Part shown: positions 21,712 through 29,339 of the stretch, piece by piece
Layout of the letters: every line of letters starts with the position of its first letter
Position numbering within the stretch: position 1 is the stretch's first letter
Source of the DNA: an uncultured bacterium
Lineage (GTDB): Bacteria > Patescibacteriota > Saccharimonadia > Saccharimonadales > Saccharimonadaceae
Reading direction: 5' to 3'
Assembly (NCBI GenBank): GCA_903832635.1
Contig: CAILCF010000005.1
Span: forward strand, 62,001 to 126,000
DNA: 64,000 nt
Notes under the pieces: model-generated
The model's database searches: none
Told to the model about the DNA's origin: nothing
What the model saw: only the letters and a program-made list of their open reading frames with translations
Translations under genes and position numbers: made by a program

Positions 21712-21810
21712 AATGAGATAAACCACATCCGGACTTAACTATTGCGCTTTAATAAGTGCATGATATATAGTTACTCTAGTATTACCGAAAGACAAACAGA
21801 GGGAAATATA

Positions 21811-22956
21811 TTGAAACCATTTTCTGCCCTAAAATTCTTTAAAGAGAACAAACGAAAAGGCTTAATGACCTTTATCGTATTAATTTTGTCAATTTGCGCC
21901 ATTTCACTAATAACCGTCATGATTAATTCAATTCACGAGTCTTTTGATGTGTATACGCAACCTCTCACCAAATATTCGCTTGTTGCGGGCTCCACGAGCG
22001 ATTTATATTTGAACCAATCGGTTGTAGATAAGTTAAAATCTGATACTGATATTGAACGGCTAATCCCCTGTGACACCGACGGGATTAACACCAACTTCTC
22101 AATTGGCGGTAGTGCAGTAGTCGGTACATTTGCAAACGTTTCCAACTTAAAATATTTACTAGGCAAGTTTAATGACGTGGTCAAAGAGGGACGCTTGCCT
22201 AAAAATAATACAGACGAAATCGCCGTGCACCAACGGATAATGTTAAATAAAAATTGGAAGCTCGAACAAATTGTTGGCAATAAAGTTGACTCTAAGGAAT
22301 TTTTGTCGGGTTCGTATAAAATTGTCGGAGTGTTGGACGGTCCTGCTATTACCTTCGTCGGTACTCAATCAAACCGCGAAAAGCAGTACATAAAAAACGG
22401 ACTAGATATAACAAAACCTATAGAATACGCGGTATTTGCAAAACCCGGTAAATTTGATGCGGTGAATAAAACACTTGAATCTATAAATGTAAATGATGCC
22501 ACTGTTTCCGACTTTAATACTATTATTACGCAGAGTAACGACAGTTTCGCGTCCATAAATACTACTTTAATAGGAGTAATTTTGGCTGTAACGATCATAT
22601 TATCGATATCAATCAGCTCGCTAATGTATCTAATATACCTGCAGCGTTCAGACGAATTCGGCATTCTTTTAGCTATGGGATACCGTAAGAGTTTTATTTA
22701 TCGTCTGATTCTTAAAGAAATCCTTTTTCTAAACATCATAAGTTGGGCAATCGGATTTTTGCTGGCATATCTGCTCATATACCTATTAAACTACTTCGTT
22801 TATAACCCGCAAGGCAGCGTTCTTAACTTCTTTAGCGTGAATGTTTTTGAAAATACACTATGCATACCGATAGTCGCAACTATATTTAGCATATTACCAA
22901 TCCTTTCAAAAATGCGAAAGCAAGATCCAATCACTATTATCGAGAGGCGCGACTAA
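21811..22956 (+). CDS. MacB/FtsX-like ABC transporter permease
   Basis: 381 residues: one N-terminal membrane helix, a long outside domain (about 45-260), then three C-terminal helices with the FtsX core (YLIYLQRSDEFGILLAMGYRK), the type VII ABC layout used by MacB and LolCE. The frame is open from 21742, but GAGGG sits seven nucleotides before TTG at 21811, which gives MKPFSALKFF, the usual family start. It is coupled to the ATPase 1 bp downstream. Likely mechanotransmission or peptide/lipoprotein export. Confidence 0.8.
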   Translation: MKPFSALKFFKENKRKGLMTFIVLILSICAISLITVMINSIHESFDVYTQPLTKYSLVAGSTSDLYLNQSVVDKLKSDTDIERLIPCDTDGINTNFSIGGSAVVGTFANVSNLKYLLGKFNDVVKEGRLPKNNTDEIAVHQRIMLNKNWKLEQIVGNKVDSKEFLSGSYKIVGVLDGPAITFVGTQSNREKQYIKNGLDITKPIEYAVFAKPGKFDAVNKTLESINVNDATVSDFNTIITQSNDSFASINTTLIGVILAVTIILSISISSLMYLIYLQRSDEFGILLAMGYRKSFIYRLILKEILFLNIISWAIGFLLAYLLIYLLNYFVYNPQGSVLNFFSVNVFENTLCIPIVATIFSILPILSKMRKQDPITIIERRD

Positions 22957-22957
22957 A

Positions 22958-23653
22958 ATGATTGAATGTAAAAATCTTACACTCAGCTATAAAGACGGCA
23001 ATAGAGAGAATCTCGTCTTAGATAATGTTGACATGCAGATAAATAATAACGAGACAATTGTATTGCTTGGACCATCCGGCAGTGGCAAAAGTTCATTAAT
23101 CTATCTTTTGTCCGGCTTGAAGAATCCTACGTTCGGGCAAATCATGTATGACGGGGTGGATATTGAAAAGTATAATTCAAAACAATTTTCAGATCTGCGT
23201 CGTAAAAAATTTGGTTACATATTCCAACAGCATTTTTTGGTACCATATTTAAAAGTTATCGAAAACGTGCTTGTCGGAGCGCCAAAGATGAGCAATACAT
23301 ACCGAGTTAAAGCGCAACAGCTACTTCATGAACTTGGCATCGATCAATACATGAATAAGAGAATTTTTGAACTTTCGGGTGGTGAACGTCAACGAGTAGC
23401 AATCGCGAGGGCGCTCATATCAGAACCGGACATTATTTTTGCTGATGAGCCTACTGCATCCCTCGACCACAACACGGCCGTAGAAATTTTAAAGTTGATT
23501 AAAAAATATAAAGAATCAACCACACTAATAATCGCTACACACGATACATCAATACTTGACGGCAATGAGTCGATCGTGAGGATCGAACACGGCAAGGTTA
23601 TAAGAGATAATAATGCCGAAAGTCTAAGCACCTTAAAAAACCAGACGAGTTAG
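22958..23653 (+). CDS. MacB/LolD-like ABC ATPase
   Basis: 231 residues with Walker A GPSGSGKSS, Q-loop YIFQQHFLVPY, signature ELSGGERQRVAIARA, Walker B IIFADEPTASLD and H-loop ATHDTS. It partners the permease at 21811-22956. A second, distinct pair of the same class lies at 27451-29339. Confidence 0.9.
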   Translation: MIECKNLTLSYKDGNRENLVLDNVDMQINNNETIVLLGPSGSGKSSLIYLLSGLKNPTFGQIMYDGVDIEKYNSKQFSDLRRKKFGYIFQQHFLVPYLKVIENVLVGAPKMSNTYRVKAQQLLHELGIDQYMNKRIFELSGGERQRVAIARALISEPDIIFADEPTASLDHNTAVEILKLIKKYKESTTLIIATHDTSILDGNESIVRIEHGKVIRDNNAESLSTLKNQTS

Positions 23654-24242: not shown

Positions 24243-24280
24243 TTGGCAGGGCATCCTAGACGAAGTTAGAACTTTATTGA
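24243..24280 (+). repeat. tRNA-Trp-like repeat, copy 10 (left of 38-bp perfect pair)
   Basis: TTGGCAGGGCATCCTAGACG continuing for 38 bp to 24280; all 38 bases recur at 27383-27420. It is a diverged subtype of the array repeat and bounds the NUDIX-RiPP-phosphorylase block. Confidence 0.85.
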
Positions 24281-24299: not shown

Positions 24300-24791
24300 C
24301 TAATTAAAGAATTGTCTGCAGCTTGCAATCAATCGATCGCCAACTTTGCCATAATTTATTAAATTGTTTACATCATTTATGCCAACAAGTTTGTGTCCAA
24401 CAACACTTCCGCCTGGATCGTTAGTGAACTCACCAATCTTTTCTAATTTTGCGTATACTCTGAATTGATACGCCACGTCTTTATCGCCTGGCCTCGATAA
24501 TCTTTGGTAGCCAAGTGGTAACCATGAAACAATCTTCATATTTAGTTCTTCTTGTATTTCACGATGCATTGCGTCCTCGAGCGACTCACCTTGCTCGACA
24601 TGACCACCCGGAAGGTTGTTTTCTTTATCATGGTATTTTACTAATGGAACTCGATTTTCAAAGTTCCCTATTACATAAATTTGTTCCCACTGGAGGTCCG
24701 GGATTTCAGATTTATTTTGAACATCATACCATTTAACAGATATTACGTCTCCTTCATAAATAAATTCATCAATCAAATCTGGTTTTGTCAT
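24300..24791 (-). CDS. NUDIX hydrolase A
   Basis: 163 residues with an intact Nudix box: GGHVEQGESLEDAMHREIQE continuing ELNM (GX5EX7REUXEEXGU, with Asn in place of the last Gly). An N-terminal beta sheet and a C-terminal basic tail flank it. It hydrolyses a nucleoside diphosphate linked to an unknown group. TATACT (24798-24803) ends six nucleotides before the ATG (leaderless). Confidence 0.85.
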   Translation of the reverse strand: MTKPDLIDEFIYEGDVISVKWYDVQNKSEIPDLQWEQIYVIGNFENRVPLVKYHDKENNLPGGHVEQGESLEDAMHREIQEELNMKIVSWLPLGYQRLSRPGDKDVAYQFRVYAKLEKIGEFTNDPGGSVVGHKLVGINDVNNLINYGKVGDRLIASCRQFFN

Positions 24792-24843
24792 TAGTTCAGT
24801 ATAACAAAAATGTACGTTCTCTGATTTTTTTGCATTAAAATAT

Positions 24844-24865
24844 CCCGTTACCTCACCGTAACGGG
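24844..24865. terminator. Hairpin between NUDIX and the peptide gene
   Basis: CCCGTTAC pairs with GTAACGGG (8 bp, 6-nt loop). T-rich sequence follows on the minus strand, so it is probably a terminator for the radical-SAM/peptide transcript. Confidence 0.6.
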
Positions 24866-24902
24866 AAGTATTGACTCTTCGATATTACTGGATCATGAGA
24901 TT

Positions 24903-24939
24903 GGCGGCACCCGTCCGCATTGCGCAAACGGGTGCCGCC
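24903..24939 (-). terminator. Strong GC hairpin after the precursor peptide gene
   Basis: GGCGGCACCCGT pairs with ACGGGTGCCGCC (12 bp, 13-nt loop), 15 bp past the peptide stop. It lacks an immediate T-run, so it may protect the mRNA end or act with the second hairpin at 24844. Confidence 0.6.
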
Positions 24940-24953
24940 TCACTCTTCTGGAC

Positions 24954-25115
24954 CTACGCCACGTGGGACTGCTCGCTGAAAGCGGAACCACAGCAGGCGT
25001 TGCCGCCCATGACGATGGCCTTGGTGATCGACTCCCCGGTCGGGAGCGTCTCCTGCCGACTGACGGATGCGCCGATTACGTCATGGGCGCTCGTCATTGT
25101 CTGAAGCACTGTCAT
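24954..25115 (-). CDS. Putative RiPP precursor peptide (53 aa)
   Basis: The ORF starts at ATG 25115, six nucleotides after GAGGGGAGG, an excellent ribosome site, and lies 21 bp downstream of the radical-SAM gene. It encodes MTVLQTMTSAHDVIGASVSR as a hydrophilic leader start and ends in AIVMGGNACCGSAFSEQSHV plus Ala. The GG before NACCG resembles a double-glycine leader cleavage site. The Cys-Cys pair and Ser/Phe residues are candidate crosslink positions. The arrangement (SPASM enzyme then short Cys-containing peptide, then strong hairpins) is typical of ribosomally made, post-translationally modified peptides. The class (sactipeptide, ranthipeptide or other) is not determined. Confidence 0.7.
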   Translation of the reverse strand: MTVLQTMTSAHDVIGASVSRQETLPTGESITKAIVMGGNACCGSAFSEQSHVA

Positions 25116-25136
25116 TCTTGTCACCTCCCCTCAGGG

Positions 25137-26468
25137 CTATGTCGCTGATGGACTAGCGCCAGAAGACTTCGCCTTCTGGTACTTTTGAAGAACATATCCT
25201 GGAATGTCATGAACGACATCAGAACATGTTTTTCTGCCGATGTATCTTGCCATGCGGCATCCGCCCTTACAAAGTGGGAGGATCTTGCACCGCAGGCATT
25301 CGTCGTCGTTGAAGGGGTCGGCAGTCACGAACCTGGCGTACCTGGAGACTTCTGCCTGGGACAGGAAGCCGTCTTTGACGTTGCCGACGGACTCCTCCTT
25401 TCCCATGTTGTGCGAACACATGAACAGGTCACCCTCCTGATTGATCAGGAAAGCGTTATCAAAGTCGCACTCGCAGAAGTTGTATGTCGGGCCCTCGTCG
25501 AACGAGTTGGTGGTGAAACCGGTGCTCTCGGCCAGCTGGTAAAGCGGCGCGAGGTTAGTAAAGGGCGACTGTCCCTTCAACCTCTGGGAGAACTCTTGGC
25601 CCGGACTTCTGCCGTCAGGGTGGGAGTTTACCCACCTAAACAGCAGAATGCACTTCCTTTTCACGCTGGTCGGGACTTTCTCGAGCAAGGCCGGAATGCT
25701 GTCGTAGTTGTTGTCGGTCACGTTGACGCGCAAAATGGACGCCACGTCAGATTGACTGCCTTCGCAGTATCTGGCCATGTTGCCCAAAATCGTGTCAAAC
25801 GTACCGGCGTGCGAACCCTTGACGAACCGGTAACTGTCGTGGATAGCTCTGTCGCCATCGAGCGTTACCTGGACGCTCTTGATATGAAGCGCTTCGGTTT
25901 GCTCGGCGAATTGCTCATCCAGTAGTACACCGTTCGTCACGAGACTTGCGGTGTACTCGAATCCATATTGCCCTTCCAGGCGCAGGATGCCTTCAGTTAA
26001 CCGTGCGATCGTTCCCTTTGACAGCAGCGGCTCCCCACCGAACCACTGCAAGTACAGGGTCTTCGCGCCGACCAACTGCCGTTCCAGCCACGTCAAGTAG
26101 CTGTTCTCGGTCTCTCGACTCATGAACATGCCCGTCTTGCTTTCGAAGCAATACGGGCAGTCCAAGTTGCACGAGAGGTTCGGTAGAACGGTGTGCCGGT
26201 GTATTCCCGACGAGTACAGACTTCGGCTCCAACCGAGCCTGAAGTAAGCCAGCTCGTCCATGTTGTCCTCGACCACAAACATCTGGTCAGAAAGGGACTG
26301 GAGCAAGCTTGACTCCGTTTGGCTCGTGGGATGGAAACCGTTGTTCGACAGGTTCGTGAAAACCGTGTACTCATCAGCTGACATTTCAGCGATGTTCTTG
26401 TACATGGTGTTGTAGAACACTTTGCCGACTGGACCGTCGACGATGATAGTGTAGAATGAAAGCTTCAT
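25137..26468 (-). CDS. Radical SAM/SPASM peptide-modifying enzyme
   Basis: 443 residues. The N-terminal 95 residues look like the peptide-engagement (RRE-like) region of such maturases. The radical SAM motif is CNLDCPYC (CxxxCxxC), followed by LQWFGGEPLLS. The SPASM end has Cys ligands in CECDFDNAF, FMCSHNMG and ECLRCKILPLCKGGCRMAR for extra Fe-S clusters. ATG at 26468 has CGGAGG eight nucleotides upstream; the frame open to 26519 is not used. The gene is much richer in G and C than its neighbours and has different codon use, a sign of acquisition. It probably crosslinks the peptide encoded at 24954-25115. Confidence 0.88.
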   Translation of the reverse strand: MKLSFYTIIVDGPVGKVFYNTMYKNIAEMSADEYTVFTNLSNNGFHPTSQTESSLLQSLSDQMFVVEDNMDELAYFRLGWSRSLYSSGIHRHTVLPNLSCNLDCPYCFESKTGMFMSRETENSYLTWLERQLVGAKTLYLQWFGGEPLLSKGTIARLTEGILRLEGQYGFEYTASLVTNGVLLDEQFAEQTEALHIKSVQVTLDGDRAIHDSYRFVKGSHAGTFDTILGNMARYCEGSQSDVASILRVNVTDNNYDSIPALLEKVPTSVKRKCILLFRWVNSHPDGRSPGQEFSQRLKGQSPFTNLAPLYQLAESTGFTTNSFDEGPTYNFCECDFDNAFLINQEGDLFMCSHNMGKEESVGNVKDGFLSQAEVSRYARFVTADPFNDDECLRCKILPLCKGGCRMARYIGRKTCSDVVHDIPGYVLQKYQKAKSSGASPSAT

Positions 26469-26611: not shown

Positions 26612-27346
26612 ATGATAACATTCGATTCTGATAAAAACGCCATATTCAATCCGCAAAGTCTTAATTTAGTAGGCAATCCTAAAAAAGCCCTAATGATTTT
26701 TGACGATGAGGTCTGGGAAGATTATGTTGAAAAAAACAAAGCACTAGAGACTTTTCCGGCAAAGAATAACAGCGGTAGAGTCTTTAGCACCTTTCGCATG
26801 TATAAACATGATGACGAAAATATTTTGTTAATCTGCCCAAACGTCGGTGGGGCGGCTTCTGTTGTAGACTTAGAGTTACTAATTGCCAGTGGTATTAAAA
26901 AAATTGTTGCCTTCGGAACATGTGGTGCAATGGATAAAAATGTTGGTAAAAACACCATCATCATCCCGTCAAGCGCAATTCGAGAAGATGGCGTCAGCTA
27001 CCACTATCTACCACCTAGCGACGAAGTTGATCAGAAAAAGACATCAATTAAAGTCATGGAAAAAGTCTTTTCGCGACATAACATGAATTATCAGACGGGA
27101 AATGTTTGGACGACCGATGCGGTATATAGAGAAACATCAAATAAACTGAAAACCATGAAACAAAATGGCTGTCTGGCTGTTGATATGGAAATGGCATCAC
27201 TGATGTCTGTGGCTAAATTTAGGTCTATTGATTTTGCTGGTTTTTTAATTGCTGACGATAATATCGACGGAAAGCCTAAAATTGAATACAAAAGAGACTC
27301 TGCTAAGCTACTTCAGCTAGCCTTAGAAATAGTAACAACCATTTAA
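26612..27346 (+). CDS. Nucleoside phosphorylase family protein
   Basis: 244 residues of the PNP/UDP phosphorylase fold (PF01048). GTCGAMD and REDGVSYHY are the phosphate and base pocket regions, and LAVDMEMASLMSVA holds the MEM ribose-binding motif. It cleaves a nucleoside with phosphate; base specificity is unclear. GGAG lies seven nucleotides before the ATG. It is divergent from the radical-SAM gene and is the last gene before the right 38-bp repeat. Confidence 0.85.
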   Translation: MITFDSDKNAIFNPQSLNLVGNPKKALMIFDDEVWEDYVEKNKALETFPAKNNSGRVFSTFRMYKHDDENILLICPNVGGAASVVDLELLIASGIKKIVAFGTCGAMDKNVGKNTIIIPSSAIREDGVSYHYLPPSDEVDQKKTSIKVMEKVFSRHNMNYQTGNVWTTDAVYRETSNKLKTMKQNGCLAVDMEMASLMSVAKFRSIDFAGFLIADDNIDGKPKIEYKRDSAKLLQLALEIVTTI

Positions 27347-27382: not shown

Positions 27383-27420
27383 TTGGCAGGGCATCCTAGA
27401 CGAAGTTAGAACTTTATTGA
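27383..27420 (+). repeat. tRNA-Trp-like repeat, copy 11 (right of 38-bp perfect pair)
   Basis: Identical over 38 bp to 24243-24280 and in the same orientation. Upstream TTATAAGCATAAAC matches flanks of other copies. The ABC permease gene ends 31 bp to its right. Confidence 0.85.
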
Positions 27421-27450: not shown

Positions 27451-28668
27451 CTATAGTCCCCAGATTGCGTCCAGAATCTTAATTCTGACGGACTGGAATG
27501 CTGGTACAAGTGATGAAAGTAGTGTAACTGCTGATAGGATTAATGCATTCTGAATCATTGAGCCTTGGTTGATGTATAGAGTTACGTAACCGTAAGGGAA
27601 TTTGAATGGATGCTGCACAACAATTGGGGCTAGAACGTACAGAAATACGAGTGCGCCAATACTGATACCTATCATTGCAAAAAATGCAGATTTTAGTAGA
27701 TAGTTGCCGATAATTGCCTTTGACTGTATACCTATCGCGCGCTCTATACCGATCTGTTTCCTTTTATTAATCAAATCAACGTATGTGACTATAAAGACGG
27801 TTATAGCGGCTACTATAAGTGAAATGATCTTTAGTATTTGATTTATTAGATCGAATGTCTTTAATTGATCTCTTACAGGTCCTGCTAGATCATCTGATGT
27901 TTGATATTTTATTCCGGGTTGTTTCGACACTAGGTTATCACCTAGACTTGTATTACTCTCAGTGTTTTTAGATTTTACATATACCGAAGTCGAGTGATTT
28001 TTCGTTATTGGTAGCAATAAATTGGCATCCTTTTGAGATATATAGGCCTTTTGGTCAGATTGAAGGAAGTTATTATTGAAAATCCCTTTCACTTTAAAGT
28101 CATGTGTCTTGCCATTTATCAAACTGACCGTTACCGTATCACCAGCGTGTACGTTTTTCAATGAAATAGCATATCCTTGCATGTTTGTCTGTCCTGCTCC
28201 CGCAATTTCCACTCCCAATACAATCGAATCCGTATCGTTTTTATCTAAGAACGAACCTTCAATTATGTTACTAGGGGTTGTGAATACTTTTCCAAATGAG
28301 TCAGGCTCGATAGCATCTACTGACCAAACATTTGATATGTTGCCCTTACTGATCTGAGTACCAACCCTTAGGGTAGGAGTAGCATCGACAACTGAAGTGT
28401 TTGATCGTATATTTGTTAATAATTCGTCTGTATTTGTAATATTTGAGCCGCTATTAGAGGAAGACAGGATAACATTGCTAGTTAGAGTTTCAATTAGCTG
28501 CAAGCTTACCTTATGGCTTAGGCCTTCAATTAATGATGGTAAAAATAATAAATTAATATAGATCAAGGCCAGCATACCAATAGTAAGTACGGTTATGCCT
28601 TTGTTGCCGCGCCACAAAGAGCGTATTGCCAAGAATATTGAAACCCTTGCAGAACGTAAATATTTCAT
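27451..28668 (-). CDS. FtsX-like ABC transporter permease
   Basis: 405 residues: N-terminal helix, a 210-residue outside domain, and three C-terminal helices with the FtsX signature (VDLINKRKQIGIERAIGIQS). Same class as 21811-22956 but only distantly similar in sequence. It overlaps the ATPase gene by 4 bp (ATGA-type coupling). It lies between the array and tRNA-Trp, so it may itself be the first cassette. Confidence 0.85.
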   Translation of the reverse strand: MKYLRSARVSIFLAIRSLWRGNKGITVLTIGMLALIYINLLFLPSLIEGLSHKVSLQLIETLTSNVILSSSNSGSNITNTDELLTNIRSNTSVVDATPTLRVGTQISKGNISNVWSVDAIEPDSFGKVFTTPSNIIEGSFLDKNDTDSIVLGVEIAGAGQTNMQGYAISLKNVHAGDTVTVSLINGKTHDFKVKGIFNNNFLQSDQKAYISQKDANLLLPITKNHSTSVYVKSKNTESNTSLGDNLVSKQPGIKYQTSDDLAGPVRDQLKTFDLINQILKIISLIVAAITVFIVTYVDLINKRKQIGIERAIGIQSKAIIGNYLLKSAFFAMIGISIGALVFLYVLAPIVVQHPFKFPYGYVTLYINQGSMIQNALILSAVTLLSSLVPAFQSVRIKILDAIWGL

Positions 28669-29339
28669 ACGTATTCCTCTGTAATTCTTCCATCCTTTAG
28701 AAATATTAGTTGTGTTGCATATTTTTTATCGTCAGGATCATGAGACACAAAGATTATTGTTACACCAGTTTTTTTGTTCAGGTTTTTTAGCGTGTCCATT
28801 ACTGTCTTTGCGGATATGCTATCTAGATTTGCAGTCGGTTCGTCTGCAAAAATAACTTTTGGATTGTTTATCATGGCTCTTGCTATTGCAACACGTTGTT
28901 GTTGTCCACCTGATAGTTCTTTGGGTAAATGGTTAATCTCATTTCCAAGACCAACAGTTTCAAGTAAATTCTTAGCTAGCTTTTTATACTTTTTACTTTT
29001 GACACCAGACATCATGGCGGGGAGATATACGTTTTCAATTGCAGTTAACTCAGGTATAAGAGCATATTCCTGGAACACGTAGCCTAATGTGTTTAAACGA
29101 AGTATTGATCTCTTACCTTCCGGCAAATCAATAACGTCCTTTGCGTCGATTATAATACTACCGCTATTTGGCCTATCTATCAGGCTAAGTTGACGTAGTA
29201 ATGTTGTCTTTCCAGACCCGCTCTTGCCCATCAAACCAACCATCATGCCCTTTTCGATGTCAAAAGAAACATCTGAAAGAGCGGGTACTTCTACTTTACC
29301 CATTTTATAAATCTTGCTTAAATTGTTGACTGTAATCAT
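28665..29339 (-). CDS. LolD/MacB-type ABC ATPase
   Basis: 224 residues with Walker A GKSGSGKTT, Q-loop YVFQEYALIPE, signature LSGGQQQRVAIARA, Walker B VIFADEPTANLD and H-loop SHDPDD. Forms a pair with the FtsX-like permease. AGG lies eight nucleotides before the ATG; a TATATA box at about 29370 would give a short leader. Confidence 0.9.
   Translation of the reverse strand: MITVNNLSKIYKMGKVEVPALSDVSFDIEKGMMVGLMGKSGSGKTTLLRQLSLIDRPNSGSIIIDAKDVIDLPEGKRSILRLNTLGYVFQEYALIPELTAIENVYLPAMMSGVKSKKYKKLAKNLLETVGLGNEINHLPKELSGGQQQRVAIARAMINNPKVIFADEPTANLDSISAKTVMDTLKNLNKKTGVTIIFVSHDPDDKKYATQLIFLKDGRITEEYV

Follow-up and report, generated by a model that had tools for sequence, protein, structure and literature searches.

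A probable RiPP-type precursor and radical SAM/SPASM maturase pair, accompanied by a nucleosidase-like gene, in ultrasmall Patescibacteria

Gene content of the locus

We analysed a stretch of DNA of 64,000 nucleotides (the window) from a genome of 793 kb. The region described here is a unit bounded by two repeats, in which a radical SAM/SPASM maturase gene is followed on the same strand by the gene of a putative precursor peptide and by two hairpins, and a nucleosidase-like gene of the PNP_UDP_1 family (hereafter the PNP-like gene) is encoded divergently on the other side of the maturase (Table 1). The Nudix hydrolase gene that shares this unit probably lies outside the peptide pathway; no Nudix gene was seen beside the maturase in the loci of its relatives. 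An Rfam search of the region from 17 to 30 kb returned a tRNA and one sub-threshold chance match, and nothing more.

Table 1. Genes and sequence features at the locus, with positions in the window and the evidence for each
Feature	Position	Strand	Evidence
Putative RiPP precursor peptide, 53 aa: MTVLQTMTSAHDVIGASVSRQETLPTGESITKAIVMGGNACCGSAFSEQSHVA	24954..25115	-	ATG at 25115, stop ending at 24954; directly 3' of maturase in 4/4 relatives; ten invariant residues
Core CCGSAFSE (residues 41-48), probable modification site	24972..24995	-	CCG and E48 invariant, F/Y at 46
Precursor ribosome binding site (GGGGAGGTG)	25122..25131	-	Sequence; GGAGGTGAT in 3/4 relatives
Radical SAM/SPASM peptide maturase, 443 aa	25137..26468	-	ATG at 26468; PF04055, TIGR04085 and TIGR04334 matches; cysteine motifs
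PNP_UDP_1 (PF01048) nucleosidase-like enzyme, 244 aa, conserved partner	26612..27346	+	PF01048 E=1.1e-31
Hairpin 1 after precursor, 16-bp stem	24903..24939	-	Fold z = -5.8 (whole hairpin region)
Hairpin 2 after precursor, terminator-like, then TATTTTAAT	24843..24866	-	Folding and sequence
38-nt repeat, left edge of unit	24243..24280	+	Identical to 27383-27420
38-nt repeat, right edge of unit	27383..27420	+	36 nt past PNP-like stop; like placement in L043
Nudix hydrolase, within repeat-bounded unit of cluster	24300..24791	-	PF00293 E=8.2e-12
ABC/FtsX pair 1	21742-23653
ABC/FtsX pair 2	27451-29339

The maturase

The initial annotation had read this locus as a radical SAM/SPASM enzyme followed by a 53-aa precursor ORF with a good ribosome site, a vicinal cysteine pair and two hairpins downstream, and each of these features was borne out. 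The enzyme matches PF04055 (E=1.2e-8), passes the SPASM model TIGR04085 with 52.2 bits (cut-off 27), and contains the motif CNLDCPYCF together with the SPASM cysteines; CxxxCxxC and the SPASM cysteines are invariant across five relatives. Its best profile match was the Clo7bot maturase TIGR04334, with 209 bits over residues 23-424 and thus far under the cut-off of 600. It was followed by TIGR04463 (202 bits, cut-off 525), the geopeptide maturase (178 bits), CefB (175 bits) and the PapB model NF047865 (112 bits, cut-off 340), all of them likewise below cut-off. Judged from its sequence, the maturase is a separate new subfamily within the broad Clo7bot/TIGR04463/geopeptide/PapB group, since it reaches the cut-off of no curated maturase family and has only distant matches elsewhere. 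An AlphaFold model of the maturase, built from an alignment of five sequences, was poor (pLDDT 54). PADLOC returned only a weak viperin match, over the radical SAM core, and we rejected the maturase as a defence system.

The comparison with known systems brings out both likenesses and differences. The Clo7bot system of Clostridia, with the maturase CtpM (TIGR04334), shares the architecture of the window maturase, and there too short peptide genes adjoin the maturase gene. However, the window enzyme is only 28% identical to that of Paraclostridium, where the maturase gene comes after many Cys-rich peptide genes and ahead of ABC transporters, whereas the window has one two-cysteine peptide after the maturase and no conserved transporter. 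The TIGR04463, CefB and geopeptide maturases belong to the same broad SPASM group (175-202 bits, with cut-offs of 400-600), but the locus is without a repeat-rich precursor of the CefA type. PapB, a ranthipeptide maturase, is a distant relative whose match spans the radical SAM and SPASM regions.

The precursor peptide

Directly after the maturase, a homologous peptide of 48-61 aa is found in all four close relatives, and this conservation beside every close maturase relative supports a RiPP-type pair. The peptides of the four relatives scored 141, 87, 150 and 113 against that of the window (BLOSUM62), compared with 32-41 for the runner-up ORF at each relative locus and with a top score of 40 over 40 shuffled loci. 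The initial annotation had called for a search for homologous peptide/enzyme pairs and had named an unconserved ORF as one outcome that would speak against its reading; this outcome did not occur. The 56-aa version of the precursor in the ORF list corresponds to a start at an upstream GTG.

Ten positions are invariant across the five peptides (M1, Q5, T8, E22, P25, G27, C41, C42, G43 and E48). They fall into a leader with the pattern M..(L/I)Q..T ... E.(L/M)P.G and a core that reads CCG-x-(A/S)-(F/Y)-x-E, of which CCG is the strongest conserved block. Strong ribosome sites precede the peptide in most loci. In the window, the two stems after the precursor fold with z = -5.8 relative to shuffles, the second one being terminator-like, and a G+C-rich stem, read by eye, follows the peptide in every relative.

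Small ORFs arise randomly, and this peptide has no match in curated families; a search of plasmid records with the peptide as query gave one weak match (E=1, in an unannotated stretch of a haloarchaeon), which was discarded. One might hence take the short ORF for a chance frame or a spacer, with the maturase acting on some other substrate. The homologous ORF with its ribosome site in all four relatives, the ten invariant residues and the scores far above those of the shuffled loci refute this reading, to which we give almost no credence. The locus very probably encodes a RiPP-type pair of precursor and maturase, as judged from sequence conservation.

The conservation is less kind to the idea of a secreted peptide. 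The initial annotation had placed a GG-type cleavage point before the core, a position that varies among the five peptides (MGG, MGK, VKP, MGG and MSG) and is unconserved. It had also reported that a dedicated peptidase or exporter was absent, and indeed none is conserved across the loci. The two ABC/FtsX systems to which it drew attention do lie nearby, but as exporters they fare poorly: they sit in separate repeat-delimited units, and the transporter types differ among loci. Permeases of the window and of the locus L004 are 21-25% identical, L006 has an ABC-2 type transporter, and inspection of the 11 kb locus L007 revealed no transporter ORF. Since the MGG site, exporter and peptidase are all unconserved and the ABC genes belong to separate units, a secreted peptide acting on the host is unsupported. 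Two further features of the locus had gone unmentioned in the initial annotation, namely the G+C-rich block and the conserved PNP-like neighbour.

A conserved nucleosidase-like neighbour

The PNP-like gene scores 110.5 bits against PF01048 (gathering score 25.1). A gene of this family accompanies the maturase and the peptide in all five loci; it is divergent and adjacent to the maturase in four of them, and downstream and inverted in L005. The outer neighbours vary: the window and L006 show repeat-bounded arrays with different genes, L004 has ABC and DNA methyltransferase genes, L005 an IS481 transposase, and L007 ribosomal protein genes. The five loci may share one ancestral cluster, so their association with the PNP-like gene does not amount to five independent events.

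Whether this neighbour takes part in peptide modification is a question on which the evidence pulls both ways. It is possible that the RiPP pair is real but travels in mobile gene units with a PNP-like gene that is an unrelated passenger from purine salvage. PNP-like relatives stand without the maturase in G013, G039, G317, G038, G164, G582 and others. In G013, a Nudix gene 49% identical to that of the window also lies near the PNP-like gene, at about 3 kb. The gene also has its own strand and a host-like G+C content (38%, against 54-62% for the pair). Against a passenger stand its presence beside the maturase in 5/5 loci while the outer contexts vary, its persistence nearby even in the rearranged locus L005, its status as the sole PF01048 gene of the genome, and the agreement between the maturase and PNP-like trees for the five loci. 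A functional link is also favoured by the rarity of PF01048 genes, which occur in 30/384 genomes of the class, and by a PNP-like copy in G610 that shares 98% identity with the one in L005 and has an unrelated PqqD-radical SAM operon at a distance of about 1.7 kb. Close relatives of the window gene occur in about 8/392 genomes of the class. We regard the passenger reading as a serious contender that falls somewhat short of probable, and consider the chances of a functional link between the PNP-like enzyme and the peptide pair to be evenly poised.

The sequence of the PNP-like protein provided insights into the reaction that it may catalyse. The catalytic Asp and the Met-Glu are kept. In E. coli DeoD, a phosphate-dependent phosphorylase, we take Arg24, Arg43 and Arg87 to be the phosphate-binding residues, the Asp to protonate the purine and the Met-Glu to bind the ribose. 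In the PNP-like protein, the position of Arg87 is occupied by Ala100 and that of Arg24 by Trp35, and no conserved Arg is found at the position of Arg43; the phosphate-binding arginines that mark DeoD are lacking. The replacement of these residues by Ala and Trp suggests that the enzyme hydrolyses its substrate rather than phosphorolysing it. The MTA/SAH nucleosidase MtnN/Pfs belongs to the same superfamily and is likened to the PNP-like protein by the kept Asp and Met-Glu and the lost phosphate-binding Arg, but the PNP-like protein reaches only 28 bits with the MtnN model PRK05584 (cut-off 169), and the AMP nucleosidase (69 bits) and DeoD (56-57 bits) models score higher, all of them below cut-off. 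The motif FDDE(V/A)W could supply the N-terminal water-activating Glu of MtnN, with an uncertain alignment at this point. The AlphaFold model of the protein from a five-sequence alignment was poor (pLDDT 51).

Proposed modification of the peptide

Based on these findings, we propose that the maturase binds the leader of the precursor, makes a 5'-deoxyadenosyl radical, removes a hydrogen from one residue of the core and links this residue to a cysteine. The likeliest product would be a thioether from C41 or C42 to E48 (C-X6-E or C-X5-E), with a loss of 2 Da and one cysteine left free; the core holds only one conserved acidic residue for its two cysteines. The PNP-like enzyme would cleave the inhibitory by-product 5'-deoxyadenosine. 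Since no dedicated peptidase or exporter lies alongside the genes, the peptide would be trimmed or moved by general cell machinery, or would act within the cell. We hold this explanation as a whole, from the modified peptide and its maturase to the cross-link and the disposal by the nucleosidase, to be on balance probable.

The peptide core could also be modified in another way. A cyclophane might be formed by joining an aromatic carbon to Glu within F/Y-x-E, or the maturase might make another C-C bond or an epimer, and the cysteines would then serve as a disulfide or a metal site. Known cyclophane motifs have a three-residue spacing, as in F/Y-x-E, and F/Y46-x-E48 is kept in all five peptides; moreover, the cyclophane-forming maturases YhhB (61 bits) and FxsB (39 bits) are among the weaker profile matches of the window enzyme. 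The top profiles, however, are those of maturases whose names refer to Cys-rich peptides or thioethers (Clo7bot, TIGR04463, CefB and PapB), and CCG is the most strongly conserved block. We consider a cyclophane or related product unlikely, and slightly favour a cysteine thioether of some kind. The thioethers made by PapB link Cys with Asp or Glu, and the enzyme tolerates Cys-Xn-Asp spacings of 0-6 (PMC9413430). This chemistry is compatible with the core of the window peptide, in which the Cys-X5/X6-Glu spacing is at the edge of the tolerance of PapB. A Cys-Glu thioether in particular is put forward tentatively.

The by-product 5'-deoxyadenosine, released at every turnover, inhibits radical SAM enzymes and needs to be removed (PMC8102628). 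Its cleavage is suggested as the simplest task that would tie the PNP-like enzyme to a radical SAM enzyme, and we name 5'-deoxyadenosine as a possible substrate with some reserve. If the link with the nucleosidase is true, this radical SAM RiPP cluster would bring along its own disposal enzyme for an inhibitory by-product.

Distribution and mobility of the cluster

Four close maturase relatives, with 55-74% identity, were detected among 84,980 species genomes of bacteria and archaea; they fall in two classes of Patescibacteria. Two of the four are from Candidatus Saccharibacteria and the other two from one metagenome project. By coordinates, their genomes G057, G258, G490 and G618 correspond to the loci L007, L006, L004 and L005. 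Searches within the class (392 genomes) and the phylum (379 genomes) found close relatives in the already known genomes only; further searches of two lineages added no close relative, and no close maturase copy turned up in the 27 other genomes assigned to the genus of the window. Viral contigs yielded distant, partial maturase matches only (27-33% identity), and phage and plasmid records relatives of less than 60% identity, with the best listed at 23-31%. The sporadic distribution across two classes suggests that the cluster has spread by horizontal transfer. Among the few matches obtained from the open-access literature, none appears to describe this cluster, and Clo7bot, geopeptide and TIGR04463 were not mentioned.

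Base composition differs within the unit. The G+C content is 54% for the maturase and 62% for the peptide, in surroundings of about 38%. The maturase and peptide also exceed the PNP-like gene in G+C in L004, L005 and L006, less clearly in L007.

Between 17298 and 27420 of the window, a 40-60 nt repeat (TGGCAGGGGCT..TGGACGATTACAGAACTTT) occurs about eight times, always in a single orientation, and the cluster sits between two identical 38-nt members of this set. Between the repeats lie Fic and HTH, CDP-alcohol transferase, PLD, ABC and Nudix genes. In L006/L043, from a second Saccharibacteria family, repeats of a related set (L043 2826, 7169, 7776 and 8468) flank the cluster, and in L043 a repeat lies close behind the PNP-like stop, as in the window. 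The array looks integron-like. No attC-like partner half-sites of the array repeats were found, and the one tyrosine recombinase detected in the genome, a single 323-aa frame, is on another contig, with no IntI beside the array; a classical integron was rejected on these two grounds.

We infer that the maturase, the peptide and the nucleosidase-like gene form a small mobile set that passes between ultrasmall bacteria. In spite of very small genomes, devoid of most biosynthetic pathways, a few Patescibacteria would keep and exchange a complete peptide-modification system. The conserved nucleosidase-like partner and the carriage in small mobile units add to the interest of the cluster, and repeat-bounded arrays point to one possible route by which these bacteria trade accessory genes. 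A bolder scenario would be a mobile three-gene set, with a nucleosidase dedicated to 5'-deoxyadenosine, that is passed around among ultrasmall bacteria with an obligately epibiotic life, in some cases within an undescribed integron-like, repeat-delimited array, and whose peptide serves in interactions with hosts or rivals. We deem this scenario improbable.

Other modification genes in related genomes

More distant maturase relatives, about 27% identical, occur in other Patescibacteria (G328 and G564/G584). Those of L044 (G328:C25, 5731-7035) and L065/L066 (G564, G584) are distinct SPASM maturases within the broad group of the window enzyme, and in G564/G584 a gene with a HELIH motif (metallopeptidase-like) adjoins the SPASM maturase.

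Near the PNP-like gene of G610, the locus L063 (G610:C4, 2906-4942) encodes a PqqD-like protein (weak ScmD match), a radical SAM protein and a small protein; this operon in an ultrasmall genome looks RiPP-like. In the genome of the window, a further region (G000:C2:75000-91000; L071 3198-11775) contains two radical SAM genes, one of which matches the window maturase at 22%. This region also holds two methyltransferase-like genes and a prenyltransferase-like membrane protein, and is possibly a further modification cluster. Meanwhile, L037 (G013:C1, 8033-11501) displayed a phosphopantetheinyl transferase-like gene, a NodU-like carbamoyltransferase and the start of an adenylation-domain-like protein. 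Together they make up an NRPS-like cluster, and the genome, of about 0.7 Mb, belongs to the genus of the window.
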